From a virus: DNA of 57,878 bases. Where the stretch lies: positions 1 through 57,878 of IMG/VR virus record IMGVR_UViG_3300022752_000079; one strand, given 5' to 3'. The stretch's first letter is position 1. Each line of letters begins with the position of its first letter. Below are positions 2,894 through 57,005 of the stretch, piece by piece. A program made the position numbers and the translations under genes. The notes beneath the pieces were generated by a model. It worked only from the letters and a program-made list of their open reading frames with translations, made no database searches and was not told where the DNA came from.

Positions 2894-4102
2894 TTACAAC
2901 AACCAAGTTAAGTCTTCATTCTTATTTAATCCTATAGGCATGGACCATGGATTAGACTTTGAAGAGTTGGGTGTAGTTAATATCGGGTTACTTGAAGTCT
3001 TAGTGATGTGAGATAAAGCTACTTGAGTTAATTCTCTACCTCGTTCCATCAACTTAAATGCATTGTCTCGAACCCATATACCAATTGAATATGACATTAC
3101 GAGATCATCATTGTAACCATGTTGTGCTTCAGGCTTGGATCCATTCCATATAAAGACCGAAAGTTCTTCCAATAATCTGATACTATTGATTATGAGTTCT
3201 TTATGTCGAGCCATCGTTTCTAGCTTAGATATAAGAAGAGGTCTAGTCTTTGATGAAGTAGTAAACCCGGGAACTGAATTCGATGTATTCCTAACGTCTA
3301 CGCCTCGAGCCAACTGTTGATTTAAATTGATATCAGTTGTAATATCTCTGTTAGTGTGATACAAGTTACTGTATCCTCGTTCTATTATAGTCTGTATTAC
3401 AGCCCATCCAACGTTTGCATTTTCCACTACCAGTAACGCATTATTGTATTCTGTAGCGACTGTAACCAATAGATGACCAAATTCAGTGGTACCTATCATA
3501 CCTTTATATTCAGCAACCTGATTTAAAGTCTCTACATCAAATACATGTAATGTTGAATAGTCCGCTCCATTACCTCTAGACACGTCGGCTGCTACTATAT
3601 AGTTTCTATGAAAATCAGCATATTCCCATATCCATAAATTGTTATCAAAGCCTCGTTTTTCAATCGGTTCTCGAGTCATTGATCTGTAATACTGCAATAT
3701 TTCCGGGGCAATTACGGTCGCACCTGAGGAAATGAAATCTGCATCACAGTTATGTGATAATATACCGTTAACTGCATACACGTGCGATTCTCCCGAATTA
3801 ATTACATCATATAACTGTATATCAAAATCGAAACATTTTATAGAACTAACATATATTGGCTCCGAATCTAACGGTGAATCTATATAACATCCTTCATATA
3901 ATTCAATAGCATACATGGGCCTGGAGTCGACTATGAATGCATGATTTTTCGAACACTTTATACTGTCACCGTTACTTAGTTGAATTTCTATAAACTCCGG
4001 TTTAGATCGCAGCGATATGCCATCGAAATGTTCATAACCTCTATCGGTTAATATTTTGTATCGACTATTACGTTTCATATCGTACACGTTAACATGATTC
4101 AT
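2894..4102 (-). CDS. Terminase large subunit, C-terminal piece with C-intein 2
   Basis: A 402-residue protein. Residues 1-118 are the C-terminal half of a split intein: block B-like IKCSKNHAF, block F-like LYDVINSGESHVYAVNG and the end ILSHN. It is followed by extein Cys119 (CDADFISSGATVI). Residues 119-402 are the TerL nuclease domain, with acidic residues in AADVSRGNGADYSTLHVFD, VVENANVGW and YNDDLVMS. It lacks the ATPase domain, which two other genes encode. The start overlaps the previous gene by 14 bases. The expected product is joined by trans-splicing to the middle piece. The domain calls are seen in sequence; splicing is inferred. Confidence 0.93.
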   Translation of the reverse strand: MNHVNVYDMKRNSRYKILTDRGYEHFDGISLRSKPEFIEIQLSNGDSIKCSKNHAFIVDSRPMYAIELYEGCYIDSPLDSEPIYVSSIKCFDFDIQLYDVINSGESHVYAVNGILSHNCDADFISSGATVIAPEILQYYRSMTREPIEKRGFDNNLWIWEYADFHRNYIVAADVSRGNGADYSTLHVFDVETLNQVAEYKGMIGTTEFGHLLVTVATEYNNALLVVENANVGWAVIQTIIERGYSNLYHTNRDITTDINLNQQLARGVDVRNTSNSVPGFTTSSKTRPLLISKLETMARHKELIINSIRLLEELSVFIWNGSKPEAQHGYNDDLVMSYSIGIWVRDNAFKLMERGRELTQVALSHITKTSSNPILTTPNSSKSNPWSMPIGLNKNEDLTWLL

Positions 4103-4778
4103 CTAATTTAGTATACAAATCGGATATTTTCATATCCATTATAGAGTTTGTATACGTATCACATACTGATACTACACAATCACCATCCACACATTCCTGG
4201 GCTGCTAATCTAGGACCTAATAAATCTTCTTGATCCTGCCTCCATTTCTCAGTTCTATCCGGATGTACAGTCCAATGTAATCGAATTGGATTCCACTTTG
4301 AATTGATATTGGTAGTAGCATCAACCCAAGTTTTATGAAAGAAATTTCCGGTACCGTTAGGTGATGACAATAAAATTGCCTTACCACCCGTAGCTAACGT
4401 TTGTTGAATTGAACCCCATATCTCATCGATACCGTCAATGAAGGCGCAGTTATGACTTACTACATCGTTAGTATAATACTCACTATCATATGACACATCG
4501 ATAGCGTCATATAGTTCAAATTCACCTAGCTCATATGATACATCGCTTACTTCCTTATTACCATATAAAATATCACCGGGTAAAATATGACATGCTTCTA
4601 AAAATTCACCATTGGGAAATTTCAATAGATGTGACTCACTACATTTTATATTAGTATTATCCGTAAATTGTATCGTAAACATAATTGTTTTTATAGTCTT
4701 CGATACACCTGAGAAGTCTGACCAACCTGTTGGTGTCAATATTTCCCAATCAGTATTTTGTACTATTTCTTTTTGCAT
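4089..4778 (-). CDS. Terminase large subunit, middle piece flanked by two half-inteins
   Basis: A 229-residue protein with three parts. Residues 1-110 are C-intein 1 (IKCSESHLLKF, LYDAIDVSYDSEYYTND, end VVSHN). Residues 111-195 are TerL sequence from CAFIDGIDEIWG through the coupling motif SSPNGTGNFFHKTW to GPRLAAQE. Residues 196-229 are N-intein 2 (CVDGDCVVSV to the stop). The extein joins upstream at VIVDE/CAFID, the Walker B site, and downstream at AAQE/CDADF. Both joints place Cys at +1, as needed for splicing. It overlaps the endonuclease gene by 16 bases. Neither half-intein is degenerate, which argues against a decayed gene. Confidence 0.93.
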   Translation of the reverse strand: MQKEIVQNTDWEILTPTGWSDFSGVSKTIKTIMFTIQFTDNTNIKCSESHLLKFPNGEFLEACHILPGDILYGNKEVSDVSYELGEFELYDAIDVSYDSEYYTNDVVSHNCAFIDGIDEIWGSIQQTLATGGKAILLSSPNGTGNFFHKTWVDATTNINSKWNPIRLHWTVHPDRTEKWRQDQEDLLGPRLAAQECVDGDCVVSVCDTYTNSIMDMKISDLYTKLDESC

Positions 4779-5788
4779 ATCGATTTGATTACTTTTTCCA
4801 AATCAGGGTACTTCTCTAAGTCGAAGTTACTTTCATTATTACGATACCAGTTATCATCTATTATAACATACGTATAATCGTTCTGTGCACACCAATCCAT
4901 CGCGGCTTCATACTTCGCTACATTTCGACTATTAGCTATCAACGATAACGGCTTTATTTCATATAAAACCTTATTTACGTCATCAGTAAAATCGACTATA
5001 TACACGTGCGAAGTATTGTTAAATGTATATGAAATTCTAGTAACTTCGTACTTACAATTTAAATTTAACGAATAAAACGCGGCTTCCCACATACTTCTAA
5101 ATTTTTTTATACCGCTATTATCAATTAACGTGGCAGTCCATCGAGTCCATGAGTTTGTTATACAGGGTGTGAATTCGCCCGATGCTATTTTACGTTTCAT
5201 AGTTTCTGATATTTTCTTTCTAGAAGCGATATAAACATCTTTATACTTTTCCTTATACGATATACTGTTATGTACTAATTTATTGGAATTTCTAATTTTT
5301 TCTTTAGTAGATTCAGTATGTACATAATCACCGTTTACAGTCCAACAGTGTTGACCGCAATATCGTTTTTTTGATTGTTCACTTCTTCTGTATAGTACAC
5401 CGCAGCCACGACATATGGTGTCTATATAACGTATACGCTTATTTTTAAATTTAGTATCACCATCCCAACTATTAAGTAGTACCTTAGTTCGATGTTTTGA
5501 TATACAATTCGAATCTGTACAGGTTTTATTAAACGGGACCTGCGGTCTGCGAAACTTTAATTTATTTGTATTACAATATGTACATAATTGTACGGAAACA
5601 TACCCATTTTCTATATAAAATATTCTCTCACGAAAACTAGTGTCGTATGAATCTAGAAATGAAGTATTATTAAATATCGCTTCTCGAACATCCTGAATAC
5701 CACGCTTACTAAAAAAATTATCTTTTAATACATCATGATGTAATTTACCATTAATATATATTTTTTCTAGTATAACAGAATTGTCCAT
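4763..5788 (-). CDS. Free-standing homing endonuclease, zinc finger plus PD-(D/E)XK-like
   Basis: A 341-residue protein between the N and middle terminase pieces. It has Cys clusters typical of small zinc fingers: CTYC...C...C at about 70-90 and CRGCGVLYRR...CGQHC at about 127-148. The C-terminal nuclease-like part has W-E-AAF, then D and E-x-K in YIVDFTDD...LYEIKPL. This resembles the Vsr/PD-(D/E)XK endonucleases reported in fractured split-intein loci. It probably cleaves intein-less terminase alleles and spreads the split locus. A related protein lies in the tRNA array at 40539-41321. Exact family membership was not tested. Confidence 0.8.
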   Translation of the reverse strand: MDNSVILEKIYINGKLHHDVLKDNFFSKRGIQDVREAIFNNTSFLDSYDTSFRERIFYIENGYVSVQLCTYCNTNKLKFRRPQVPFNKTCTDSNCISKHRTKVLLNSWDGDTKFKNKRIRYIDTICRGCGVLYRRSEQSKKRYCGQHCWTVNGDYVHTESTKEKIRNSNKLVHNSISYKEKYKDVYIASRKKISETMKRKIASGEFTPCITNSWTRWTATLIDNSGIKKFRSMWEAAFYSLNLNCKYEVTRISYTFNNTSHVYIVDFTDDVNKVLYEIKPLSLIANSRNVAKYEAAMDWCAQNDYTYVIIDDNWYRNNESNFDLEKYPDLEKVIKSICKKK

Positions 5789-5822
5789 ATAACGTATATT
5801 ATGCGTATAAATATATACAATG

Positions 5823-6404
5823 TTATTTTTTATTCATATTAAATAAATCAGCAATCGTAATCTCTAAAACTTCATCGGTAGTTTTATGTTTAACCTTAAC
5901 TATAGTTCTACCGTCACAGCACTCATCCACTATTACTACCGAACACGCTTCAGATCTACCAGAGTCTGATGAAGTGGTTGTAGCTTTAATTTGCGATCCG
6001 TTTTTAAATCGTAAACTCAATTTGTTATCTTCCGTAGTAACCACTTTCAACCAAGTCGGTAAATTTTCATTCATTACTCGCACTTTAGTTACCAGATTCT
6101 TAGCTACATCCTGTTTAGTAGCCAATACCAATATGTTTTTATCTGAGTGGAATATCATGTACCATAGAGCGTATGCAGCACATAATGTAGAGATACCTAG
6201 CTGACGCGATTTTAATATGACATTGTAATCGTGATGCTGGAATGATTTCAATACATCCTGTTGATATGGATACAATTTAAATGGAATTTTCCCGCGCTGA
6301 GGATGTTGGATCACACAGTACTTTATCATAAAGTATATAGGATCGCTATAACACTTTTTAAATTCTAATTTGATTATATCTCTTAGATTAGCTTCGGCGC
6401 TCAT
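5823..6404 (-). CDS. Terminase large subunit, N-terminal piece with N-intein 1
   Basis: A 193-residue protein counted from ATG 6404; an in-frame TTG at 6410 would add two residues but overlaps the previous stop. Residues 1-161 are the start of the TerL ATPase, with the adenine-binding YPYQ region, Walker A-like KSRQLGIST (about 65-73) and Walker B VVIVDE at the end. The last 32 residues are a short N-intein starting CCDGRTIVKV and ending at the stop. The total TerL extein is about 161+85+284 = 530 residues, a normal TerL length. An N-intein this short is the atypical split seen in the AceL-TerL intein. Confidence 0.93.
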   Translation of the reverse strand: MSAEANLRDIIKLEFKKCYSDPIYFMIKYCVIQHPQRGKIPFKLYPYQQDVLKSFQHHDYNVILKSRQLGISTLCAAYALWYMIFHSDKNILVLATKQDVAKNLVTKVRVMNENLPTWLKVVTTEDNKLSLRFKNGSQIKATTTSSDSGRSEACSVVIVDECCDGRTIVKVKHKTTDEVLEITIADLFNMNKK

Positions 6405-6406
6405 TG

Positions 6407-6640
6407 TCAAATAATTGTTGCAGGTGGACTTGGACTAGTAGTAGCACCGGGACCTACCGGAGTTGCAACAGCTTGACCTGGAGGTACTATAATTGTCATG
6501 GATCGTATATACGAATCGATTGCAATCGATAACTGTTGTGCTATCAATTTTGCCGCTGTTTCAGGCGGTATATTTTTATTGGAAAACGCAACATTTAAAG
6601 CCTGTTCAATTTGAAGCTGTAATACACTAGGAACTAACAT
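6407..6640 (-). CDS. Small conserved phage protein upstream of terminase
   Basis: A 77-residue protein with a helical N-terminus (MLVPSVLQLQIEQALNVAF) followed by AIDSYIRSMTIIVPPGQAV and a Pro/Thr/Ser/Gly-rich tail. It resembles small proteins with an AIDxYIKS...VxxG pattern common in phage structural clusters, but no function is known to me. It overlaps the preceding gene by 14 bases and ends next to the terminase start. A small-terminase role is possible from position only. Confidence 0.7.
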   Translation of the reverse strand: MLVPSVLQLQIEQALNVAFSNKNIPPETAAKLIAQQLSIAIDSYIRSMTIIVPPGQAVATPVGPGATTSPSPPATII

Positions 6641-12765: not shown

Positions 12766-15700
12766 TCATACGTATGTTATTTTGGATTTGTTATCTACCT
12801 TATGAATTTCAATAATAGAATCAACCATATCCCTTACGGTATCAATATGCGATATAACAATCACGTACATGAATTGAGTCTTCAAATAATCAAATAACAT
12901 GGCCATATTATTTAAATTGCTAGGATCTAAATTACCTAATCCTTCATCTATAACCAAAAACGGCGGTCTAGGTAAACTAGATACATTTATTAATGCAGTA
13001 CGAATTGCTATCTGAGCTACAAATTTCTCCATACCAGAACTCAATTCTAACGGCCAATATCTATCAGAATCATAAACAATATACGCGTCAATGTTTTTAC
13101 CATCGCAATTAAACGTTATTTTATAATCGGTAATCTGCGATAAAATGGTATTCACTTCCTGCTCAATATGCGGTAATGCTGTCCTAATCAATTGATACGG
13201 AATTCCATCTCTAGAAACGGCGTCCATATACAATTCATAATAATTGAATTCATTCTTTAATGTAAGTAAACGATTCAAACTCATTTTAATTGAATTCAAT
13301 TTGTCTTTACATATCTTGATACGTGAATAGACATCACGTATCTTAAGTTCTTCATCGGATAATATCTTTGATATATTTGAATGTATCTCGCGCAAATCGG
13401 CTATCTTAGAGCGAATTATATCATTTTCAATAATCGTTTGTTGATGCGTATTCAAAAGTTCCATGTACTCAATGTATTGATTTACAATCGATTGAAGTTT
13501 AGATTCTTCTATTTGCAATTGCAATTTTTCATTTGAAAGTACATGTATTTTTTTATTTATCGAATCCAATTCACGTAAGTCGATTTGCAATTGATTGTGT
13601 GCATCTACAAATTTAGATTTCAATGCAATTTCATCCAATACTGACTCAATCAATATGCTCATCTTTTCAATTTCAATTTCAGCCGTTTTCAATGATTCAG
13701 CAACATTAATTGACTTGAGTACACTTTCATTGGACATACAGAATTTGCAATTCGGATCATATTCAACGACGCCATTACGCTGTTGAACTGTAACCCAATG
13801 CAATTTTTCAGAGTTTAACAGTTTCAATTTACCATTCAATTCATCTCGATATCGAACCGCTCTATTATAAGAATCAAATTTCAATTCAATTTCTGATCGA
13901 TCCTGTAATCTGAATTCAATTTGCGTTTTCGATTCATTCAATGAATTGATAGTATTACTGGAGACAATTATTTTACTTTGAATTGCATCAAGTTTCTTTT
14001 GACTTACTGCAATTAAATCTAACAACTCATCTTTAGTATACTTTACCTCCGGATAAATTGATATGATTTTTGAATTGAGTTCATCAATTTCCGTTGAAGT
14101 TTCTTTCAATTTACTCGTTAACTTCAATTTATTTTGATCCAACTTTTCATATTCAACTTCAACCAATTCGAGTTCACTACCGTAATACGTTTGACCGGCA
14201 TCATAATCTTCTTTACTGAGTACCTTGATTTCAGTGGCCACTTCTTTAATTTCAACGGCAGCTGTCGAATACAATTTTTCAAATATTTCAGCATCCATGA
14301 ATTGAGCCAGTAAATCTTTTCGTTTACTTTGACCAATATCAATAAAGCCGGTATTGTTGTTTTGTACTGACAATGAAGTCAATACAAAGTCTTCGTAGGA
14401 TCCTAAATAACTTCTAATTATTCTATTGGTATCAGTTCTCTCTTTACCATTTAAAACTATAAGTTCTCCATTCACGTCCATTTTAGTGAAATTCACTGTA
14501 ACTCTAACGTGATCTTTCATTTTAACTCCAGTTCTAGTAATGGTATACAATTCATTGTTGATAGTAAACTTAAACTCACTTTCAAATGAATTACTTGAAT
14601 TGTTCAATACCATATCCGCTTTGGTAGTTCTATTACACTTGTCAAATATGCAATAAGCTAATGCATCAAACAATGAAGATTTACCGGAAGCGTTCGAAGC
14701 AAATATACCATACATCCCGCGCATATCATCAAATTTGATAATATTGTCATTACCGTATGAAAACATGTTTGAAAAGTTGAATGATATCGGAACCCAAATC
14801 ACATTTCTAAGTTGATCGGATGCGCCAACTATACTGTTACACTTTCTGTTAACGTGTTTTACGCCGTCTATCATTTCATCACTAACACCTTTCGCAGTCA
14901 AATAGGTACTCAACAACTTGTTCTGATATTCAATGTCTCTAACATCTCCTACATTTATTTTTGTACCGGAATTTAAATCACTTAATTGAGTATTGACTTT
15001 TTGAATGGTAGTTTCTATAATTTTACATTTCGATGAAACTTTTGATATTGTACCACTAATTTTTGATTCTGGAGTTAGTGCATTAACTTGTAACCTTAAT
15101 CTGATATTAGCCGGTAAATTTTCAGGCAATTGCAATTCAGTATCCTTAGTCAAATCAATTGTGTGATACCCGTAATCATTTTTTATACAAACAAATTCAG
15201 AGGTTTTTGATTCTACATCCCATACTAAAATACCTCGATTCAATTCAGATTCACCGAAACTTTGTTGAATCAATGAACCGGGGTATGCTATAGTTTTTGC
15301 AGCATTTAACATTTGATTCGGTACATGAATATCACCTAATAACGTTAAATCGTAACCAGAAAAAGTATGAATATTCACGTTTTTATTTTCCAATACATGT
15401 CCTGTATCTGTTACGGCAGTATCCACTGCACCGTGATGCAGTGCAATTTTAAAATTACCCTTAAATGAATCTGCTTTTATGAAGTCGGCGGGCTTATCAA
15501 ATACAGACATTACAGTGAAATGAATTCCTCCAATCTCATATACACCGGAATCAGGCAAATAAATAAAAGAGTCTGAGCCGATTGCTTTTACAATCGGAGT
15601 CAATGAATCTAACCTACTTCTATTATTTAAGTTACAATCGTGATTGCCCGGGATACAAATGGTTAAACATATTTCTGATAAACTTCTAAAAAAGTCTTGA

Positions 15701-15921
15701 ACCATATTTACTGATTCAGGACTAATATCAGTCTTCGAATGTACTATATCACCGCCTAAAAATATAACAGAATTAGGAGTTTTAGTTTTACGAATGTAAT
15801 CATATAATCTGGAAAATACTATTCGATATTCTTCATGTCGTTTCAAATTTCGAACGTGTACATCAGATATGTGATAAATCTTATCTATTTTAGATAATCC
15901 AGTTTCAATCTTAGTTATCAT
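12766..15921 (-). CDS. Fused SbcD-SbcC (Mre11-Rad50) recombination nuclease
   Basis: A 1051-residue single protein that joins the two subunits T4 encodes separately as gp47 and gp46. Residues about 12-330 are the metallophosphoesterase: HISDVHVRN, GGDIVHS, PGNHDCN, LHHGAVD, LGDIHVPN. From about 385 the ATPase begins: Walker A-like ASNASGKSS (near 412), coiled coils, a zinc hook CKFC (near 725), signature LSSGMEKFVA (near 957), Walker B FLVIDEG and D-loop GNLD (near 990), and a terminal His in VISHIDT. It resects DNA ends for replication and recombination. It overlaps the primase gene by four bases. No frameshift is needed. Confidence 0.92.
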   Translation of the reverse strand: MITKIETGLSKIDKIYHISDVHVRNLKRHEEYRIVFSRLYDYIRKTKTPNSVIFLGGDIVHSKTDISPESVNMVQDFFRSLSEICLTICIPGNHDCNLNNRSRLDSLTPIVKAIGSDSFIYLPDSGVYEIGGIHFTVMSVFDKPADFIKADSFKGNFKIALHHGAVDTAVTDTGHVLENKNVNIHTFSGYDLTLLGDIHVPNQMLNAAKTIAYPGSLIQQSFGESELNRGILVWDVESKTSEFVCIKNDYGYHTIDLTKDTELQLPENLPANIRLRLQVNALTPESKISGTISKVSSKCKIIETTIQKVNTQLSDLNSGTKINVGDVRDIEYQNKLLSTYLTAKGVSDEMIDGVKHVNRKCNSIVGASDQLRNVIWVPISFNFSNMFSYGNDNIIKFDDMRGMYGIFASNASGKSSLFDALAYCIFDKCNRTTKADMVLNNSSNSFESEFKFTINNELYTITRTGVKMKDHVRVTVNFTKMDVNGELIVLNGKERTDTNRIIRSYLGSYEDFVLTSLSVQNNNTGFIDIGQSKRKDLLAQFMDAEIFEKLYSTAAVEIKEVATEIKVLSKEDYDAGQTYYGSELELVEVEYEKLDQNKLKLTSKLKETSTEIDELNSKIISIYPEVKYTKDELLDLIAVSQKKLDAIQSKIIVSSNTINSLNESKTQIEFRLQDRSEIELKFDSYNRAVRYRDELNGKLKLLNSEKLHWVTVQQRNGVVEYDPNCKFCMSNESVLKSINVAESLKTAEIEIEKMSILIESVLDEIALKSKFVDAHNQLQIDLRELDSINKKIHVLSNEKLQLQIEESKLQSIVNQYIEYMELLNTHQQTIIENDIIRSKIADLREIHSNISKILSDEELKIRDVYSRIKICKDKLNSIKMSLNRLLTLKNEFNYYELYMDAVSRDGIPYQLIRTALPHIEQEVNTILSQITDYKITFNCDGKNIDAYIVYDSDRYWPLELSSGMEKFVAQIAIRTALINVSSLPRPPFLVIDEGLGNLDPSNLNNMAMLFDYLKTQFMYVIVISHIDTVRDMVDSIIEIHKVDNKSKITYV

Positions 15922-38549: not shown

Positions 38550-38563
38550 AACAAACTTTTTAG

Positions 38564-38635
38564 AGGTCGAGACAGGATTCGAACCTGTGTACGAGCTTTT
38601 GCAGAACTCTACCTAAGCCACTCAGACACTCGACC
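38564..38635 (-). tRNA. tRNA-Cys (GCA)
   Basis: Acceptor GGTCGAG/CTCGACC, anticodon arm GAGTT CTGCAAA AGCTC, T arm ACAGG TTCGAAT CCTGT. No encoded CCA, as for the other tRNAs here. Confidence 0.93.
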
Positions 38636-38650
38636 TTATCAATAAATATG

Positions 38651-38722
38651 TGTCCCCGGAGGGATTCGAACCCCCAACGTATGATCCGAAGTCATGAATT
38701 TTATCCATTAAACTACGGGGAC
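38651..38722 (-). tRNA. tRNA-Arg (TCG)
   Basis: Acceptor GTCCCCG/CGGGGAC, anticodon loop CTTCGGA on a CATGA/TCATA stem with one mismatch, T arm GGGGG TTCGAAT CCCTC. The 15-base spacer to tRNA-Cys contains CATATTTATT, the late-type element. Confidence 0.92.
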
Positions 38723-38731
38723 GATCGTTAA

Positions 38732-38968
38732 TCAATAACAGAACATAGCATAAATCAATCTCAAGACAAGTAAAAGTACACTAATCACTGTATACATACC
38801 ACTCAAATCAGTAACCATCCATGATCGAATAGAAAATGGTTCAATAAAGTGACCCCAGAACTTATCTCTAATATGATATTTTCTTTCCTCAACTCGCAAG
38901 TTGTGGTGTGAAACAACTAAAAATGTAGCACCGCATACGATAGCCAATGTTAATAATGAAGTGATCAT
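38732..38968 (-). CDS. Small membrane protein
   Basis: A 78-residue protein with two hydrophobic segments: residues 1-20 (MITSLLTLAIVCGATFLVVS) and 55-78 (TDLSGMYTVISVLLLVLRLI then YAMFCY), separated by a basic loop. The gene lies between the tRNA pair and the zinc-finger gene. No function recognised. Confidence 0.65.
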   Translation of the reverse strand: MITSLLTLAIVCGATFLVVSHHNLRVEERKYHIRDKFWGHFIEPFSIRSWMVTDLSGMYTVISVLLLVLRLIYAMFCY

Positions 38969-38983
38969 AAAGTTTTATTTAGT

Positions 38984-39565
38984 TTATTTAAATCGTTTCC
39001 AATGTTTAAACGTTTCTGCAATTTCATCTGAAATTACTGATTTCACTGTTTCATTTTTAGGTTTATATGATACGGCTACATCAGTCAATTCAGGTTCCGG
39101 TTGTTTTGACAACGCATTTACTATAGATATGAGTTTGGATCCTTGATATCTGGAAATTAATCGACTGTCAATCGACTCGCGTATCAATTTCATTGCTTTG
39201 TCTTTACCGAACAAATCATACAATTCCATAACTCGAGTACCTAATGCATCGTAAACTTTTTCATCTGCATTTGATTCAATTATTGAAGTGGTGTTGCAAT
39301 TCAATTTATGAGTACTACCTCCGGACTTACCCGGCTTCAAACCTCTAAGTGTACCGAATCCTGTTCTAGATGCAATTTTATGAAATTCAGCTGCAACTTT
39401 TGAATCTGATACAATTTGAATTTCGTTACCCGTTTTGTGATGAATTATCGGTATTGCAGAAACTTTCTCTACATCAGAGCAGTTAACGCAATGCATCGTG
39501 TTAGGAACGATTTTCAATCGATTGATAGGAATCTCAATGTTACAACTTTTGCAGTACCTTATCAT
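38984..39565 (-). CDS. DksA/TraR-like zinc-finger protein
   Basis: A 193-residue protein. The N-terminus has a four-Cys finger, CKSCN...HCVNC (residues 5-29), of the DksA/TraR type. The rest is basic and helical, with RLISRYQGSKLISIVNALSK near 137-156. A transcription or DNA-binding role is plausible. The ATG lies four bases from a middle-class promoter box, so the message is probably leaderless. Confidence 0.7.
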   Translation of the reverse strand: MIRYCKSCNIEIPINRLKIVPNTMHCVNCSDVEKVSAIPIIHHKTGNEIQIVSDSKVAAEFHKIASRTGFGTLRGLKPGKSGGSTHKLNCNTTSIIESNADEKVYDALGTRVMELYDLFGKDKAMKLIRESIDSRLISRYQGSKLISIVNALSKQPEPELTDVAVSYKPKNETVKSVISDEIAETFKHWKRFK

Positions 39566-39569
39566 ATCA

Positions 39570-39590
39570 TGAATCTAATATAATCAAATG
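39570..39590 (-). promoter_or_regulatory. Middle-class promoter for the zinc-finger gene
   Basis: Minus strand CATTTGAT-TATAT-TAGATTCA, four bases before ATG 39565. Confidence 0.58.
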
Positions 39591-39637
39591 AATCGTACAA
39601 TAAAGTTATACTAAAATGTGGATATCAATCGATTTAC

Positions 39638-39656
39638 TTGATAATCAATAAGTTAT
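39638..39656. promoter_or_regulatory. Operator-like 19-base repeat
   Basis: TTGATAATCAATAAGTTAT. Its core TTGATWATCAA is palindromic. The other copies cluster near early promoters at 48-57 kb; this one lies in the 192-base spacer between the zinc-finger gene and the tRNA array. The bases after it (catctaagtgcttt) recur after the 48234 copy as catctaagcacttt. Confidence 0.6.
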
Positions 39657-39757
39657 AGAACTTATTAGATACCATCTAAGTGCTTTTTACCGCTTCCATA
39701 TAATCTTTATAAGAATCATGATATTTGAGCTAGTATAAGCACTATAAACTAGATTAG

Positions 39758-39847
39758 AGGAAGATATGGGACTCGAACCCATGAATCAATTTAAATCGAT
39801 CAACTATTTAGCAAACAGTCTCCGGTGCCATCACGGACTTATCTTCC
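39758..39847 (-). tRNA. tRNA-Ser (GCT)
   Basis: Type II tRNA with a long variable arm. Acceptor GGAAGAT/ATCTTCC, anticodon arm ACTGT TTGCTAA ATAGT, T arm ATGGG TTCGAGT CCCAT. Confidence 0.92.
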
Positions 39848-39854
39848 AAATTGG

Positions 39855-39928
39855 TGTGTCTGGCGAGACTCGAACTCGCATTTACGGCTCCACAGACCGT
39901 CACTTTAAACCTTTAAGTTACAGACACC
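39855..39928 (-). tRNA. tRNA-His (GTG)
   Basis: Acceptor GTGTCTG/CAGACAC with a G at -1, anticodon arm ACGGT CTGTGGA GCCGT, T arm GCGAG TTCGAGT CTCGC. Confidence 0.92.
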
Positions 39929-39929
39929 G

Positions 39930-40016
39930 CGGAAGCCAAGAGACTCGAACTCTTACATCGGCTCAGCACCGACCTAGCCGTTTTCAAGACGGTGTACCAC
40001 TCCTTTGGGGACTTCC
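39930..40016 (-). tRNA. tRNA-Ser (TGA)
   Basis: Type II. Acceptor GGAAGTC/GGCTTCC with discriminator G, anticodon loop CTTGAAA, variable arm AGGTCGGTGCTGAGCCGAT, T arm AAGAG TTCGAGT CTCTT. Confidence 0.92.
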
Positions 40017-40021
40017 AATAG

Positions 40022-40092
40022 TTGCCTCGACACGATTCGAACGTATATCAAGGGAGTCAAAGTCCCCTATTCTGCCATTAAACTACGAGGCA
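40022..40092 (-). tRNA. tRNA-Gln (TTG)
   Basis: Acceptor TGCCTCG/CGAGGCA, anticodon arm GGGGA CTTTGAC TCCCT, T loop TTCGAAT. Confidence 0.92.
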
Positions 40093-40102
40093 ATAAATGC
40101 AG

Positions 40103-40178
40103 TACCGTGAGTGAGAATCGAACTCACCACCTCTTGGATATGAATCAAGTGTTCTAAAACCTACTGAACTATCACGGT
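40103..40178 (-). tRNA. tRNA-Met or Ile2 (CAT)
   Basis: Acceptor ACCGTGA/TCACGGT, anticodon arm CTTGA TTCATAT CCAAG (one mismatch), T arm GTGAG TTCGATT CTCAC. Elongator Met and lysidine-modified Ile cannot be separated by eye. Confidence 0.88.
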
Positions 40179-40183
40179 ATTAG

Positions 40184-40255
40184 AGCTCATACTCAGAATT
40201 GAACTGAGATCGGTTGATTACGAAACAACAATTTTACCGATTAAACTATATGAGC
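40184..40255 (-). tRNA. tRNA-Thr (CGT)
   Basis: Acceptor GCTCATA/TATGAGC, anticodon arm GTTGT TTCGTAA TCAAC, T arm CTCAG TTCAATT CTGAG. Confidence 0.9.
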
Positions 40256-40259
40256 ATAG

Positions 40260-40331
40260 AGCAGATAACGGGTCTCGAACCCGTCCCCGAAGTTTGGAAG
40301 ACTCCCGTGCCACCAACAACACCTCATCTGC
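40260..40331 (-). tRNA. tRNA-Gly (TCC)
   Basis: Acceptor GCAGATG/TATCTGC, anticodon arm GGAGT CTTCCAA ACTTC, T arm ACGGG TTCGAGA CCCGT. Confidence 0.92.
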
Positions 40332-40335
40332 AATG

Positions 40336-40408
40336 TACTCTCGAGCAGATTCGAACTGCTATAAATTCATTAGAAGTGAATTGTCCTGATCCATTGAACG
40401 ACGAGAGC
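40336..40408 (-). tRNA. tRNA-Arg (TCT)
   Basis: Acceptor GCTCTCG/CGAGAGT, anticodon arm ATTCA CTTCTAA TGAAT, T arm AGCAG TTCGAAT CTGCT. Confidence 0.92.
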
Positions 40409-40413
40409 AAATG

Positions 40414-40490
40414 TGGAGCTTATGAGCATCGAACTCATCTGATGTCTTCATTGCAAGTGAAGTGACCACAGCCAAGCAGTCCCAAGCCCC
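40414..40490 (-). tRNA. tRNA-Ala (TGC)
   Basis: Acceptor GGGGCTT/AAGCTCC, anticodon arm CTTCA CTTGCAA TGAAG, T arm ATGAG TTCGATG CTCAT. Confidence 0.92.
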
Positions 40491-40501
40491 ATATTAATTA
40501 G

Positions 40502-40580
40502 TCGATGTAATAGGACTCGAACCTATATTTGCATCCAATTACCTTAACTCCTGCATATCAGGCAGGGGGGATATACATCG
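40502..40580 (-). tRNA. Non-canonical tRNA-like gene, Ile anticodon (GAT), D arm missing
   Basis: Acceptor CGATGTA/TACATCG pairs 7 of 7 and the T arm ATAGG TTCGAGT CCTAT is perfect. Only TATCCCC separates the acceptor from a 17-base anticodon arm CCTGC CTGATAT GCAGG, so no D arm can form there. Between the anticodon and T arms lies a 23-base segment containing AAGGTAATTGG, which looks like D-loop sequence. The same layout occurs at 42117-42193. The 3' end of the homing endonuclease gene (stop at 40539) overlaps its 5' half. Confidence 0.65.
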
Positions 40581-41321
40581 TTCATTAGTAATTATATCTT
40601 CATAATACCATACATCTAATCTATAACCTAAATTTCTTACGGCATTCCATTTATTTATGTCATTATCATTAGAATATCCCTTTACTTCTAAATAATAGAA
40701 GTCGTCCGAATCTATATATACTTTAAAATCAATTAAATATGTACGCCGTTTATTATTTATATCAACATACGGATATCTATCGTTCGTATATTCCCAATCA
40801 TATATTTTATTCAAGTTTTTCCAATGATCCAATATATTGCATACTCTAACTTCATATGTACCTTGAACTTTAATATATCCTTTACTTGTATTCACCGTAT
40901 ACCATTTCGTAGTACCACCGGATATCTTTTTTTTGCCGGCAACGAATGCACGTTTATGTATTTTAGACCATTCCTCTGAAGTGATACTCAATGCCTTAGA
41001 TTGAAATATTCTCCAATTACTTTTTCTAGCACATGATTTTGAACAAAATATTTGTTTTACTTTTTTTGTATAGAAATCTAATGTACATTCATTACATACT
41101 TTATGTAGTAAAGTTATCGGTTTATGTATATGTTTTTGTTTGAGTGAGTTGCTTATTTTGAGCTTCGTAATATCTGTAAGAATACGTTTCTTATTATTAT
41201 ACGTGGCGCTACAACTTTGTGTACAAAATTTATTATGTCGTTTTTTAAAATCTATAATACTAATACCGCAATTTATACATTTATTCGGTGCTGCACTATA
41301 ATCGATTACCTTTATTGTCAT
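40539..41321 (-). CDS. Homing endonuclease in the tRNA array, zinc fingers plus PD-(D/E)XK-like
   Basis: A 260-residue protein from ATG 41321; the frame is open further upstream but that part runs through tRNA sequence. Two Cys clusters, CINCG...CTQSC (about 15-40) and CNECT...CSKSC (about 77-98), are followed by a nuclease-like core GTYEVRVCNILDHW, YLIDFKVYIDSDDF and YYLEVKGY. The order of elements matches the endonuclease in the terminase locus (4763-5788). It sits between tRNA-Thr(TGT) and a D-armless tRNA-like gene and overlaps the latter by 42 bases. The element CTATATTTATT lies three bases before the ATG. Confidence 0.8.
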   Translation of the reverse strand: MTIKVIDYSAAPNKCINCGISIIDFKKRHNKFCTQSCSATYNNKKRILTDITKLKISNSLKQKHIHKPITLLHKVCNECTLDFYTKKVKQIFCSKSCARKSNWRIFQSKALSITSEEWSKIHKRAFVAGKKKISGGTTKWYTVNTSKGYIKVQGTYEVRVCNILDHWKNLNKIYDWEYTNDRYPYVDINNKRRTYLIDFKVYIDSDDFYYLEVKGYSNDNDINKWNAVRNLGYRLDVWYYEDIITNERCISPLPDMQELR

Positions 41322-41364
41322 AAAAATAAATATAGAAAATTTAATTATATTTACATAAAATAGA

Positions 41365-41400
41365 CTACCAGGTGCCTTCAACCAATTTGGCCACGTAAGT
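41365..41400 (-). pseudogene. Possible 5' half of a tRNA
   Basis: The minus strand reads ACTTACGTGGCCAAATTGG, TTGAAGGC, CCTGGTAG. The D arm GCC...GGC and a 5' anticodon strand CCTGG are recognisable, but no matching 3' half follows; the endonuclease gene begins 44 bases further on. Its acceptor does not pair with the 3' half at 40502. Confidence 0.4.
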
Positions 41401-41405
41401 ATAAG

Positions 41406-41479
41406 AGCTTCTAATCGGACTCGAACCGATATCATTGCGTTACAAATGCAATATTCTAAGCCAATTGAACTATAGAAGC
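41406..41479 (-). tRNA. tRNA-Thr (TGT)
   Basis: Acceptor GCTTCTA/TAGAAGC, anticodon loop TTTGTAA on TTGCA/CGCAA, T arm ATCGG TTCGAGT CCGAT. Confidence 0.9.
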
Positions 41480-41489
41480 AAATGCAGGT

Positions 41490-41590
41490 CACCGCTACCC
41501 TGCTCGGTACCTAAAGTTTCGAATTCTTTAACGTCTTGTTCTGAAAGACATTGTCGCACGCTGGTACTTTCCCTTTAACGCGGAACGGTG
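41490..41590 (-). ncRNA. Structured tRNA-array element without a T loop (101 bases)
   Basis: It has a terminal stem CACCGTT/AGCGGTG of 7 bp. Inside are TTCC/GGAA, GTACC/GGTAC, GTCTT/AAGAC (loop TCAGAAC) and TTAAAG/CTTTAG around AATTCGAAA. It exactly fills the space between tRNA-Trp and tRNA-Thr. It could be a decayed tRNA or a separate small RNA. Confidence 0.4.
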
Positions 41591-41664
41591 CACCGGAGGA
41601 GTGACTCGAACACTCACTGAAATCGTTTTGGAGACGATTTGACTAACCAATTGCCGACTCCGGC
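41591..41664 (-). tRNA. tRNA-Trp (CCA)
   Basis: Acceptor GCCGGAG/CTCCGGT with discriminator G, anticodon arm ATCGT CTCCAAA ACGAT, T loop TTCGAGT. Confidence 0.92.
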
Positions 41665-41673
41665 GTATATTAG

Positions 41674-41749
41674 TAGTTCGACCCGGACTCGAACCGGGGT
41701 TCTTCTACTTTGTAAGAGTAGTGCCATAAACCAACTAGGCGATCGAACT
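41674..41749 (-). tRNA. tRNA-Val (TAC)
   Basis: Acceptor AGTTCGA/TCGAACT, anticodon arm CTACT CTTACAA AGTAG, T arm CCCGG TTCGAGT CCGGG. Confidence 0.93.
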
Positions 41750-41754
41750 GAATG

Positions 41755-41825
41755 AGCCGCGTACCATCTCGAATAGGCGTCTGTTCTATACCACAGAACT
41801 GTTTTTCCTGTTAAACTAACACGGC
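41755..41825 (-). tRNA. tRNA-Thr (GGT), weak T arm
   Basis: Acceptor GCCGTGT/ACGCGGC and anticodon arm GTTCT GTGGTAT AGAAC are good. The T stem around TTCGAGA is poorly paired, so activity is less certain. Confidence 0.75.
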
Positions 41826-41834
41826 ATTCAAAAG

Positions 41835-41918
41835 TACCCCCGGGGAGACTCGAACTCCCACACTCGTTAAAGCATCAGATCCTAAGTCTGATATGTCTAC
41901 CAATTCCAACACAGGGGC
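41835..41918 (-). tRNA. tRNA-Leu (TAG)
   Basis: Type II. Acceptor GCCCCTG/CGGGGGT, anticodon arm TCAGA CTTAGGA TCTGA, T arm GGGAG TTCGAGT CTCCC. A short hairpin CTCCGT/ACGGAG follows at 41923-41940. Confidence 0.92.
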
Positions 41919-42035
41919 AAGGCTCCGTCGGTAAACGGAGAATAGATTATTGCTTCTGATTGTCTAATGACGAGTTATGATATTTACCGATATCCGTCGT
42001 CCTCAACTCAAAGCGCGGCACTATTATCGCTATAG

Positions 42036-42108
42036 TATAAGCGGCAGGCTTCGAACCTGCGACTTCTTGGTCCCAAACCAAGTACTCTACCAACTGAGCT
42101 ACGCCTAT
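42036..42108 (-). tRNA. tRNA-Pro (TGG)
   Basis: Acceptor ATAGGCG/CGCTTAT, anticodon arm CTTGG TTTGGGA CCAAG, T arm GCAGG TTCGAAG CCTGC. Confidence 0.93.
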
Positions 42109-42116
42109 ATGATTAG

Positions 42117-42193
42117 TACTCCTGACGGGACTTGAACCCATATGTAACCAATTACCCTTTCTATATGGTATAAGCATAAGGGGATACAGGAGC
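42117..42193 (-). tRNA. Non-canonical tRNA-like gene, Ile anticodon (TAT), D arm missing
   Basis: Acceptor GCTCCTG/CAGGAGT and T arm ATGGG TTCAAGT CCCGT (mostly paired). After TATCCCC comes the 17-base arm TTATG CTTATAC CATAT with C32, T33, anticodon TAT and A37. A 21-base segment with AGGGTAATTGGTTAC follows before the T arm; its GTAA/TTAC can pair around TTGG. It has the same architecture as 40502-40580. Confidence 0.65.
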
Positions 42194-42201
42194 AAATTGG
42201 T

Positions 42202-42287
42202 AGCGGGTGCAGGAATCGAACCTGTCACACCTTTCGGTTAATAGCTTATGAGACTATCGAGGCATCACCACCAGCCTTCATACCCGC
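42202..42287 (-). tRNA. Type II tRNA with CAT anticodon
   Basis: Acceptor GCGGGTA/CACCCGC (last pair A-C), Leu-like D arm AGGCTGGTGGTGATGCCT, anticodon arm ATAGT CTCATAA GCTAT, and a long variable arm holding ACC GAAA GGT. T arm ACAGG TTCGATT CCTGC. Methionine and Ile2 tRNAs normally have a short variable region, so the identity is uncertain. Confidence 0.8.
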
Positions 42288-42298
42288 AATTTAAAATG

Positions 42299-42384
42299 TA
42301 CTCGAAGTGGGAATCGAACCCACACGACCTTTTAGGGTCACGGGATTTTAAGTCCCGCGCGTATACCAGTTTCGCCATTCGAGC
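42299..42384 (-). tRNA. tRNA-Leu (TAA)
   Basis: Type II. Acceptor GCTCGAA/TTCGAGT, anticodon arm CGGGA CTTAAAA TCCCG, variable arm GTGACCCTAAAAGGTCGT, T arm GTGGG TTCGATT CCCAC. Confidence 0.93.
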
Positions 42385-42388
42385 AAAT

Positions 42389-42477
42389 GTCCTCCATGTT
42401 AGATTCGAACTAACAACCCGCTGTGTAAAAGACAGCTGCTCTCGCCTTTCGGCTCGCCAATTAGAGCTAATGGAGGA
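42389..42477 (-). tRNA. tRNA-Lys (TTT) with enlarged D loop
   Basis: Acceptor TCCTCCA/TGGAGGA, anticodon arm GCTGT CTTTTAC ACAGC, T arm GTTAG TTCGAAT CTAAC. The D stem GCTC/GAGC encloses 22 bases, including an extra small hairpin GCC GAAA GGC not found in the other tRNAs here. Confidence 0.88.
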
Positions 42478-42481
42478 TAAG

Positions 42482-42554
42482 CGGGATATACGAGAATCGA
42501 ACTCGTAGCGCGGCATAGACAGTGCCGCATGTTCAGCCATTACACCAATATCCC
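42482..42554 (-). tRNA. tRNA-Asp (GTC)
   Basis: Acceptor GGGATAT/ATATCCC with discriminator G, anticodon arm CGGCA CTGTCTA TGCCG, T arm ACGAG TTCGATT CTCGT. Confidence 0.93.
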
Positions 42555-42565
42555 GTAATAACGTG

Positions 42566-42639
42566 TATCGCGTACGAGACTCGAACTCGTAAGCTCCTCA
42601 GTGAAAGTGAGGTGTCCTAACCAATTAGACGAACGCGAC
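42566..42639 (-). tRNA. tRNA-Glu (TTC)
   Basis: Acceptor GTCGCGT/ACGCGAT, anticodon arm CCTCA CTTTCAC TGAGG, T arm ACGAG TTCGAGT CTCGT. Confidence 0.93.
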
Positions 42640-42649
42640 GTATAAAGTA

Positions 42650-42717
42650 CTGACGGTGCTCGAGCCGCTCGAGTAGTGCGCCGGCGACCAGATTACCTGT
42701 ACCTGTCCCACCGTCAG
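42650..42717 (-). ncRNA. tRNA-sized element with 8-bp terminal stem, no T loop
   Basis: CTGACGGT pairs with ACCGTCAG around 52 bases. The inside contains a palindromic hairpin CTCGAG CGG CTCGAG in place of a T arm. It occupies a tRNA slot between Glu and Tyr. Possibly a decayed tRNA or a distinct small RNA. Confidence 0.4.
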
Positions 42718-42725
42718 TTTTGTAG

Positions 42726-42807
42726 TTCCAGCAGAAGGACTCGAACCTCCGAACTCGTAAGAGAACTGATTTACAGTCAGCTGCAATTGCCGCTATGCGA
42801 TGCTGGA
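42726..42807 (-). tRNA. tRNA-Tyr (GTA)
   Basis: Type II. Acceptor TCCAGCA/TGCTGGA, anticodon stem CTGA/TCAG with loop CTGTAAA, long variable arm, T loop TTCGAGT. Confidence 0.92.
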
Positions 42808-42813
42808 ATATTG

Positions 42814-42898
42814 CTGGCAGGGTGGGATTCGAACCCACGATTGAATTGAATTCGACGGCTTAACAGGCCGTTTCCATAGACCACTCGGACACCTACCA
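42814..42898 (-). tRNA. Ser-like type II tRNA with Asn anticodon (GTT)
   Basis: Acceptor TGGTAGG/CCTGCCA with discriminator G, D arm TCCGAGTGGTCTATGGA as in tRNA-Ser, anticodon arm ACGGC CTGTTAA GCCGT, 16-base variable region, T arm GTGGG TTCGAAT CCCAC. Ordinary tRNA-Asn is type I. It is the only GTT tRNA seen in the array. Confidence 0.85.
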
Positions 42899-42905
42899 AT
42901 AGAAA

Positions 42906-42974
42906 AAGGTATAGCTGTTTTAAGTGTGCCCTCACATACAACAGATTCGCTAATAGCATTTTAACCTATACCTT
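42906..42974 (-). ncRNA. tRNA-sized element with 9-bp terminal stem, no T loop
   Basis: AAGGTATAG pairs with CTATACCTT around 51 bases. The inside has GCTA/TAGC and a long hairpin CTGTT...AACAG with TGTG AGGG CACA. It lies between the GTT tRNA and tRNA-Phe. The rest of the spacer, 42975-43122, shows nothing recognisable. Confidence 0.4.
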
Positions 42975-43122
42975 AAGCGATGATTCACATCATCAAATTA
43001 ATTTGGCTATCAATATGTCAATGAACATCAATTAGAAGTCAATTATCATATTCTCCTAATTACTTCTTAAATCTAAGATAATTTTTTGAAACTACCAAAA
43101 TTCTAAGAAATTTTTTATTTTG

Positions 43123-43196
43123 CAGGAATACCGGGCCTTGAGTCCGAATCTCCGGATTTTCAGTCCGGCGCTTTTACCGATTTAAGCTATATTCCC
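43123..43196 (-). tRNA. tRNA-Phe (GAA)
   Basis: Acceptor GGGAATA/TATTCCT with discriminator G, anticodon arm CCGGA CTGAAAA TCCGG. The T arm is unusual: loop CTCAAGG instead of TTCGAAT. It is the first tRNA transcribed after a middle-class promoter. Confidence 0.85.
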
Positions 43197-48001: not shown

Positions 48002-48127
48002 TAGTCAGGACAGGATTCGAACCTGTATATGATACCTTTCATATTATCTACTTAACCATTTAGCTCGGGGTTTTCGAACTTTTTACTGTTAAGTAATTCA
48101 GCGTCTAACCAATTCCGCCACCTGACT
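48002..48127 (-). tRNA. tRNA-like gene 3 of the AGTCAGG family
   Basis: 126 bases. Acceptor AGTCAGG/CCTGACT, D arm GCGGAATTGGTTAGACGC and T arm ACAGG TTCGAAT CCTGT are intact. The centre holds a long stem TACTTAAC/GTTAAGTA around 30 bases, then ATATG/CATAT. It is the first element after an early promoter. Confidence 0.52.
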
Positions 48128-56915: not shown

Positions 56916-56917
56916 AG

Positions 56918-57005
56918 CAGTCAGGACAGGATTCGAACCTGTTAGGAGTTATTGACTATTACCTCCGCCGCTCACTCGGTGCGTCTACCATTCCGCCACC
57001 TGACT
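56918..57005 (-). tRNA. tRNA-like gene 4 of the AGTCAGG family
   Basis: 88 bases, the most tRNA-like of the four. Acceptor AGTCAGG/CCTGACT, D arm GCGGAATGGTAGACGC, T arm ACAGG TTCGAAT CCTGT, variable arm GGAG/CTCC. The anticodon arm CACCG AGTGAG CGGCG has one mismatch and a six-base loop, so no anticodon can be named. Confidence 0.6.

Follow-up and report, generated by a model that had tools for sequence, protein, structure and literature searches.

The large terminase (TerL) of an uncultured T4-like phage is encoded in three separate genes, and our analysis suggests that two atypically split inteins restore it through two trans-splicing events. The stretch analysed (the window) is the 57.9-kb fragment IMGVR_UViG_3300022752_000079, an incomplete record. 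We put the probability of this reading, which draws on sequence, at roughly 0.88. Three minus-strand open reading frames (ORFs) encode TerL, with breaks after VIVDE in the Walker B motif (site 1) and after LAAQE (site 2). The features of the locus, with lengths in amino acids (aa) or nucleotides (nt), are as follows:

6404-5823, minus strand: piece 1, a 161 aa extein followed by a 32 aa N-intein (CCDGRTIV...NMNKK, stop); an in-frame TTG at 6410 is an alternative start
5922-6404, minus strand: TerL N-extein, 161 aa, with P-loop region LKSRQLGIST and Walker B end SVVIVDE
5826-5921, minus strand: N-intein 1, 32 aa, beginning CCDGRTIV, with TAA at 5823
4763-5788, minus strand: free-standing endonuclease gene, 341 aa, between the halves of intein 1
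4778-4089, minus strand: piece 2, a 110 aa C-intein, an 85 aa extein and a 34 aa N-intein (CVDGDCVV...LDESC, stop)
4449-4778, minus strand: C-intein 1, 110 aa, ending YYTNDVVSHN, matching CatC and the intein profile
4194-4448, minus strand: TerL middle extein, 85 aa, CAFIDGIDEIW...GPRLAAQE, aligning with uninterrupted TerLs
4092-4193, minus strand: N-intein 2, 34 aa, beginning CVDGDCVV, matching the intein profile, with TAA at 4089
4089-4102, minus strand: 14 nt overlap of the piece 2 stop and the piece 3 start, ATGAATCATGTTAA
4102-2894, minus strand: piece 3, a 118 aa C-intein followed by a 284 aa extein
3749-4102, minus strand: C-intein 2, 118 aa, ending VNGILSHN, matching CatC and the intein profile
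2897-3748, minus strand: TerL C-extein, 284 aa, CDADFISSG...DLTWLL, the nuclease domain

The three exteins sum to 530 aa (161 + 85 + 284), and when the joined protein is aligned to the uninterrupted TerLs of Flavobacterium phage immuto and Microcystis phage Mel-JY01, both joints are free of gaps. At site 1, VIVDE/CAFID stands against LLIDE/AAFID and VIDE/AGFID in these two phages; at site 2, LAAQE/CDADF stands against AAQE/CDCDF and AAQE/CDCNF. The N-extein, which is 56-59% identical to the immuto and Mel-JY01 proteins, matches Terminase_6N, GpA_ATPase and phrog_5989; the C-extein holds the acidic motifs ADVSRG, VENANVG and YNDDLV; and the joined protein is a T4-type large terminase with ATPase and nuclease motifs (phrog_5989, E-value (E) 8e-46; Terminase_6N). 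Zero extra nucleotides at both joints were also found in 129 of the 159 TerL loci of our first collections, so that the window joints show no gap relative to 129 uninterrupted TerLs. The portal gene adjoins terL in the normal order (Portal_T4, E 4e-73), and no intact TerL was found in the window. The initial annotation had proposed a TerL in three genes broken at VIVDE/CAFID and AAQE/CDADF, N-inteins 32 and 34 aa long, 110- and 118-aa C-inteins ending in SHN before Cys, and exteins of about 530 residues. The ORF anatomy bears out both breaks to the residue and the intein lengths and ends, and the extein sum is exact; nor did the 57.9 kb yield the full-length TerL elsewhere that would have spoken against the proposal. 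The 341-aa endonuclease at 5788-4763, the 14-nt overlap and the endonuclease-free state of site 2 had gone unmentioned.

An intein profile built from nine contiguous mini-inteins, all from other phages, was run on the six-frame translation of the window. It matches exactly four stretches, namely the two N-inteins and the two C-inteins, and gave no match on 20 residue-shuffled copies. N-intein 1 covers profile positions 1-30 (independent E-value (i-E) 2e-4) and C-intein 1 positions 29-140 (2e-27); N-intein 2 covers positions 1-31 (i-E 2e-4) and C-intein 2 positions 33-140 (4e-27), so that each N/C pair tiles the profile. The best sequence match of both C-inteins in the Protein Data Bank (PDB) is CatC (6DSL_B; E 1.4e-14 for C-intein 1 and 2e-11 for C-intein 2), and the second is gp41-1. 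The 32- and 34-aa N-inteins gave no match to the PDB with phmmer and needed the profile search, and with the NCBIfam and Pfam intein models the window pieces score below the cut-offs. The residues of a class 1 intein are present at both sites: Cys1 at the start of the N-intein and Cys at +1; the block-B His, in SESH (C-intein 1) and SKNH (C-intein 2); and the penultimate His and terminal Asn in SHN. Across relatives, the block-B His, the terminal HN and the +1 Cys are invariant or nearly so, with few exceptions such as SSN in locus L089.

CatC is the consensus of the atypical split inteins AceL-TerL and GOS-TerL (review PMC11766414; PMC13014065), and the S2-type atypical split of AceL and GOS lies after helix alpha-1, giving an N-intein of about 25-37 aa (PMC13014065). 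The contiguous 140-aa site-2 intein of locus L011 yields a predicted HINT model (predicted local distance difference test (pLDDT) 96.4) that matches VidaL, gp41-1 and Cat. Its helix alpha-1 comprises residues 23-31, and both window splits fall in the loop after it; the N-inteins of 32 and 34 aa end after the IADLF and ISDLY helix, at the S2-type position. By homology to this model and by profile tiling, the window inteins are predicted to adopt the HINT fold. AceL-TerL, GOS-TerL and Cat resemble the window inteins in their TerL host, in the split after alpha-1, in an N-intein of 25-37 aa and in a C-intein of about 104 aa that is the best sequence match to both window C-inteins (PMC11766414, PMC13014065). 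AceL-TerL and GOS-TerL are single splits, whereas the window has two, with intein 1 at Walker B; and the insertion point of intein 2 is two residues upstream of that of the inteins with which CatC clusters. The earlier claims of intact splice residues and of a short-N/long-C split of the AceL-TerL type are thus upheld by the class 1 residues, the split position and the CatC match. The further claim that two trans-splicing events are needed for a full-length motor finds support in the residues, the split type and the lack of an intact TerL in the window.

In the mechanism we propose, inteins that today are split after alpha-1 would have entered the ATPase domain of terL in two independent events, one at each site. 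Three polypeptides would be made, N-intein 1 pairing with C-intein 1 and N-intein 2 with C-intein 2. Each pair would fold into a HINT domain, in which Cys1 would attack the upstream bond, the +1 Cys would take over the extein and Asn would cyclise, leaving a native peptide bond; protein splicing at both sites would yield the 530-aa TerL. Given two splits, conserved splice residues and no intact TerL in the window, a full-length motor would need both events. Since the site-1 break immediately follows the catalytic Walker B Glu, the ATPase of piece 1 would by itself be incomplete.

The middle piece has the order C-intein 1, extein, N-intein 2, which is the topology used for making cyclic peptides. 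Pairing of C-intein 1 with N-intein 2 would cyclise the middle extein, and pairing of N-intein 1 with C-intein 2 would skip it. Because of these risks, the two pairs are predicted to be orthogonal; hints are the 29-30% identity between the two C-inteins and the charge patterns (N-intein/C-intein +1/-13 for intein 1 and -5/-6 for intein 2). A general rule of opposite charges as the signature of orthogonality was considered and not adopted: the site means, from 19 site-1 and 41 site-2 pairs, differ only modestly and are no more than suggestive.

The gene between the halves of intein 1 encodes a protein with Cys clusters and a C-terminal PD-(D/E)XK domain, whose core (W-E235, D266, E277-I-K279) is invariant or nearly so in 11 homologues. 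It matches a TnsA-like family in Pfam (E 7e-7) and the endonuclease family phrog_15427 in PHROGs, and its model (pLDDT 84) gives middling structure matches by VIA, with Z 8.4 to TnsA, 6.9 to Vsr and 6.7 to I-Bth0305I. The start of the C-intein 1 ORF overlaps this gene by 16 nt. It is predicted to be a homing-type enzyme, and we propose that intein 1 would have been propagated by its homing into intein-free terL alleles during co-infection. Circumstantial signs of such homing are the restriction of its family to site 1 and the patchy occurrence of the inteins. Fractured genes, in which a split intein has a free-standing endonuclease between its halves, were reportedly described by Dassa et al. 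2009 (Nucleic Acids Res 37:2560). Like them, window site 1 combines an essential phage gene, a split intein and a free-standing homing-type endonuclease gene in between; unlike them, the window has two fractures, with a TnsA-like PD-(D/E)XK enzyme at site 1 and none at site 2, where pieces 2 and 3 overlap by 14 nt. Judged by gene layout, site 1 fits a fractured gene with its own endonuclease, and site 2 does not. Among the collected loci the TnsA-like family is confined to site 1; site 2 has another family, Vsr/EDxHD-looking, and the site-2 relatives L005, L009, L012 and L017 carry a free-standing endonuclease between the intein halves. Intein 2 most likely carried a Vsr/EDxHD-like endonuclease in the past, as its nearest relative does now, and we infer that this was lost rather than lacking from the outset; the intein would remain split because the two overlapping ORFs still give a working pair.

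The nearest relative, L005, is a second phage species with the same double split, and it and its copies are 99.3-100% identical across contigs of several metagenomes. Its site-1 endonuclease belongs to the same family as that of the window (61% identical), and its site 2 carries the other family. L011 and L201 at site 2, and L183 at site 1, carry contiguous in-frame inteins at these very points. In a tree of 118 C-inteins (108 columns, a quick search with many forks unresolved), window intein 1 pairs with L005 intein 1 among the site-1 inteins and window intein 2 with L005 intein 2 among the site-2 inteins, and a starred branch separates the two window inteins. On this site-wise grouping they were most likely acquired separately, intein 1 and intein 2 representing different site-specific lineages and independent insertions. 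Intragenic duplication of one intein is ruled out by the tree together with the 29-30% identity of the C-inteins. Window site 2 lies two residues upstream of a commoner site, QE-x-[DE]/C[DE]F, and CatC groups with the inteins at that commoner site; the AceL/GOS inteins are represented here by the CatC consensus. In the TerL extein tree, a single starred group holds the window, L005, L009 (intein at site 2 but not at site 1) and the intein-free L020; intein presence needs 13 changes at site 1 and 17 at site 2. Read from this tree, such a patchy distribution is the pattern of mobile elements. A profile search of genome contigs with the site-2 C-intein alignment found no relative, so that the inteins look phage-borne. 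Compared with L005, nonsynonymous divergence (pN) is well below synonymous divergence (pS) in all segments, among them the inteins and the endonuclease.

Our collection holds about 80 distinct split C-inteins from TerL; since inteins were what the searches targeted, such counts are no measure of frequency. In L215:1190-6101 and L217, which come from two metagenomes and are 99.97% identical, TerL lies in four ORFs with three atypically split inteins, at the P-loop, just before Walker B and in the site-2 region, and two GIY-YIG/NUMOD3-like ORFs stand between the pieces. This is the most fragmented natural TerL met in this analysis. TerL is split at the P-loop and Walker B in L223/L224, and at the P-loop and site 2 in L269/L270. 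We consider it likely that these cases and the window represent natural tandem trans-splicing, in which one motor would be built from three polypeptides (four in L215/L217) by two or three mutually orthogonal split inteins with separate homing histories, cross-reaction being selected against. Contiguous inteins were also seen: L192:2916-5318 is one TerL with three of them (P-loop, residue ~156 and a site 2b), and L188:3463-4647 has a large one with a homing-endonuclease-sized insert in the nuclease domain (about residue 463), as well as an additional intein near residue 190.

Cultured phages carry related arrangements. In Aeromonas phage PX29, TerL lies in two genes, 17A being annotated with an N-intein and 17B with a GIY-YIG endonuclease and a C-intein. 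Shigella phage JK32, a Krischvirus that grows on E. coli (for example XL1-Blue), has a Walker B split (L314:1745-3496), in which the N-intein ORF continues into a PD-(D/E)XK-like endonuclease and a separate C-intein ORF follows. In Campylobacter phage F341 the N-piece (..IFIDE/CVAGDT..) lies at 108149-108865 on the minus strand (L325:6650-7366) and the C-piece (..SHN/CAFIDKW..) at 1489-2817 on the plus strand (L316:1489-2817); in this circular record, about 24 kb separate the site-1 halves, which are encoded on opposite strands. Such unlinked halves rule out cis-splicing, frameshifting and cis intron splicing in F341, where the Walker B family member must act in trans, unless the pieces work unjoined. 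The C-intein is matched by 39 Campylobacter phage records.

Several points weigh against two working trans-splicing events in the window phage. The starts at 6404, 5788, 4778, 4102 and 2852 are mostly AT-rich upstream, with TAT or GAT directly before the ATG, and no Shine-Dalgarno motif was found before any of them, so that we infer the translation of the pieces; a Bacteroidota host would agree with these start contexts and with the relatedness to Flavobacterium phage immuto. N-intein 2 has extra Cys residues, and the N-halves diverge fast (about 41% identity to L005). Synonymous divergence (dS) from L005 is near saturation, which makes the selection test coarse. Finally, an intact TerL could conceivably lie elsewhere in the genome, of which the record is a fragment. 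A decaying terL, with the intact copy in the unsequenced part or supplied by helper phages, would draw on that incompleteness; the normal gene order beside the portal, the intact pieces under purifying selection and the retention of the same state in L005, a second species, make it very unlikely. It is decidedly improbable, too, that the pieces form a non-covalent gene-in-pieces enzyme, with inteins that have lost splicing and survive as relics. Unspliced functional cases exist, such as a ribonucleotide reductase split by a homing endonuclease (cited in PMC10448857), but here the break at site 1 comes right after the catalytic Walker B Glu, the following piece would begin with a 110-aa C-intein, and the splice residues and HINT blocks are all conserved with pN well below pS.

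The other alternatives concern how the pieces are joined. At site 2 a sequencing or assembly frameshift could have broken a contiguous mini-intein, leaving only site 1 truly split: pieces 2 and 3 share 14 nt in reading frames one step apart, and L011 and L201 have contiguous inteins there. However, a split with no endonuclease is also seen in 18 other distinct TerL inteins, whose stop-start distances range from -28 to +118 nt and whose C-ORFs open at the same fold position, and these argue against a sequencing slip; L005, the nearest relative of intein 2, is split by an endonuclease gene, and the C-ORF in the window has its own ATG start. We regard such an error as improbable. The same single frame step could reflect a programmed +1 frameshift that joins pieces 2 and 3, intein 2 then splicing in cis, but the overlap holds no recognisable slippery site, and in relatives the halves are separated by spacers or by entire genes, so that trans is the common state; there is little to recommend this reading. 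RNA splicing is known to restore terL and other genes in pieces (PMC12363816; PMC10448857), and group I or II introns could in principle act here as in Jug phages and ICP1 terL. Yet a search of the whole window for intron families gave no match, the inserts code for intein halves whose splice junctions are exact, and the F341 halves lie on opposite strands, so that the probability of RNA splicing is close to nil. Two trans-splicing events remain our preferred reading.

Among systems already described, PX29 gp17A/gp17B resembles the window in having TerL in pieces with an N-intein and a C-intein, but has one split only and a GIY-YIG endonuclease, whereas the window has two splits and another endonuclease. 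Mycobacteriophage TerL inteins at the P-loop, Walker B and C-motif of the ATPase domain have been shown to splice (Kelley et al. 2016, PMC5050341); they are contiguous and cis-splicing, whereas those of the window are split. Engineered tandem trans-splicing joins three segments with two orthogonal split inteins (PMC12707363); that system is man-made, and the window would present the same scheme in nature. We found no description of two natural split inteins in one protein in the literature searched, though an earlier mention of a double fracture in Dassa et al. 2009 is conceivable. Single split inteins in TerL are known, and two (in a distant relative, apparently three) per natural protein seem to be undescribed.

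Elsewhere in the window, a 1051-aa ORF at 12766-15921 (minus strand) fuses a metallophosphatase domain, T4 gp47-like, to an SMC/AAA_23 domain, T4 gp46-like. More than 20 tRNA genes are clustered at 38563-43196 and 56917-57005, with an HNH-type endonuclease ORF at 40539-41492 within the cluster, and a weak 126-nt tRNA match at 48002-48127 (minus strand; Rfam 36 bits), absent from the ARAGORN calls, may hold an insertion.

If our reading is true, nature performs the three-segment ligation that chemists have engineered, and does so in an essential viral motor; split inteins would also be seen to accumulate in one gene. The evolution-matched pairs, with short N-halves (about 30 aa) that suit chemical synthesis, are candidate orthogonal labelling tools. 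The system would further open to test how two related split inteins escape cross-splicing within a single cell, what keeps a gene split after the loss of its homing endonuclease, and how TerL becomes a hot spot for these elements.

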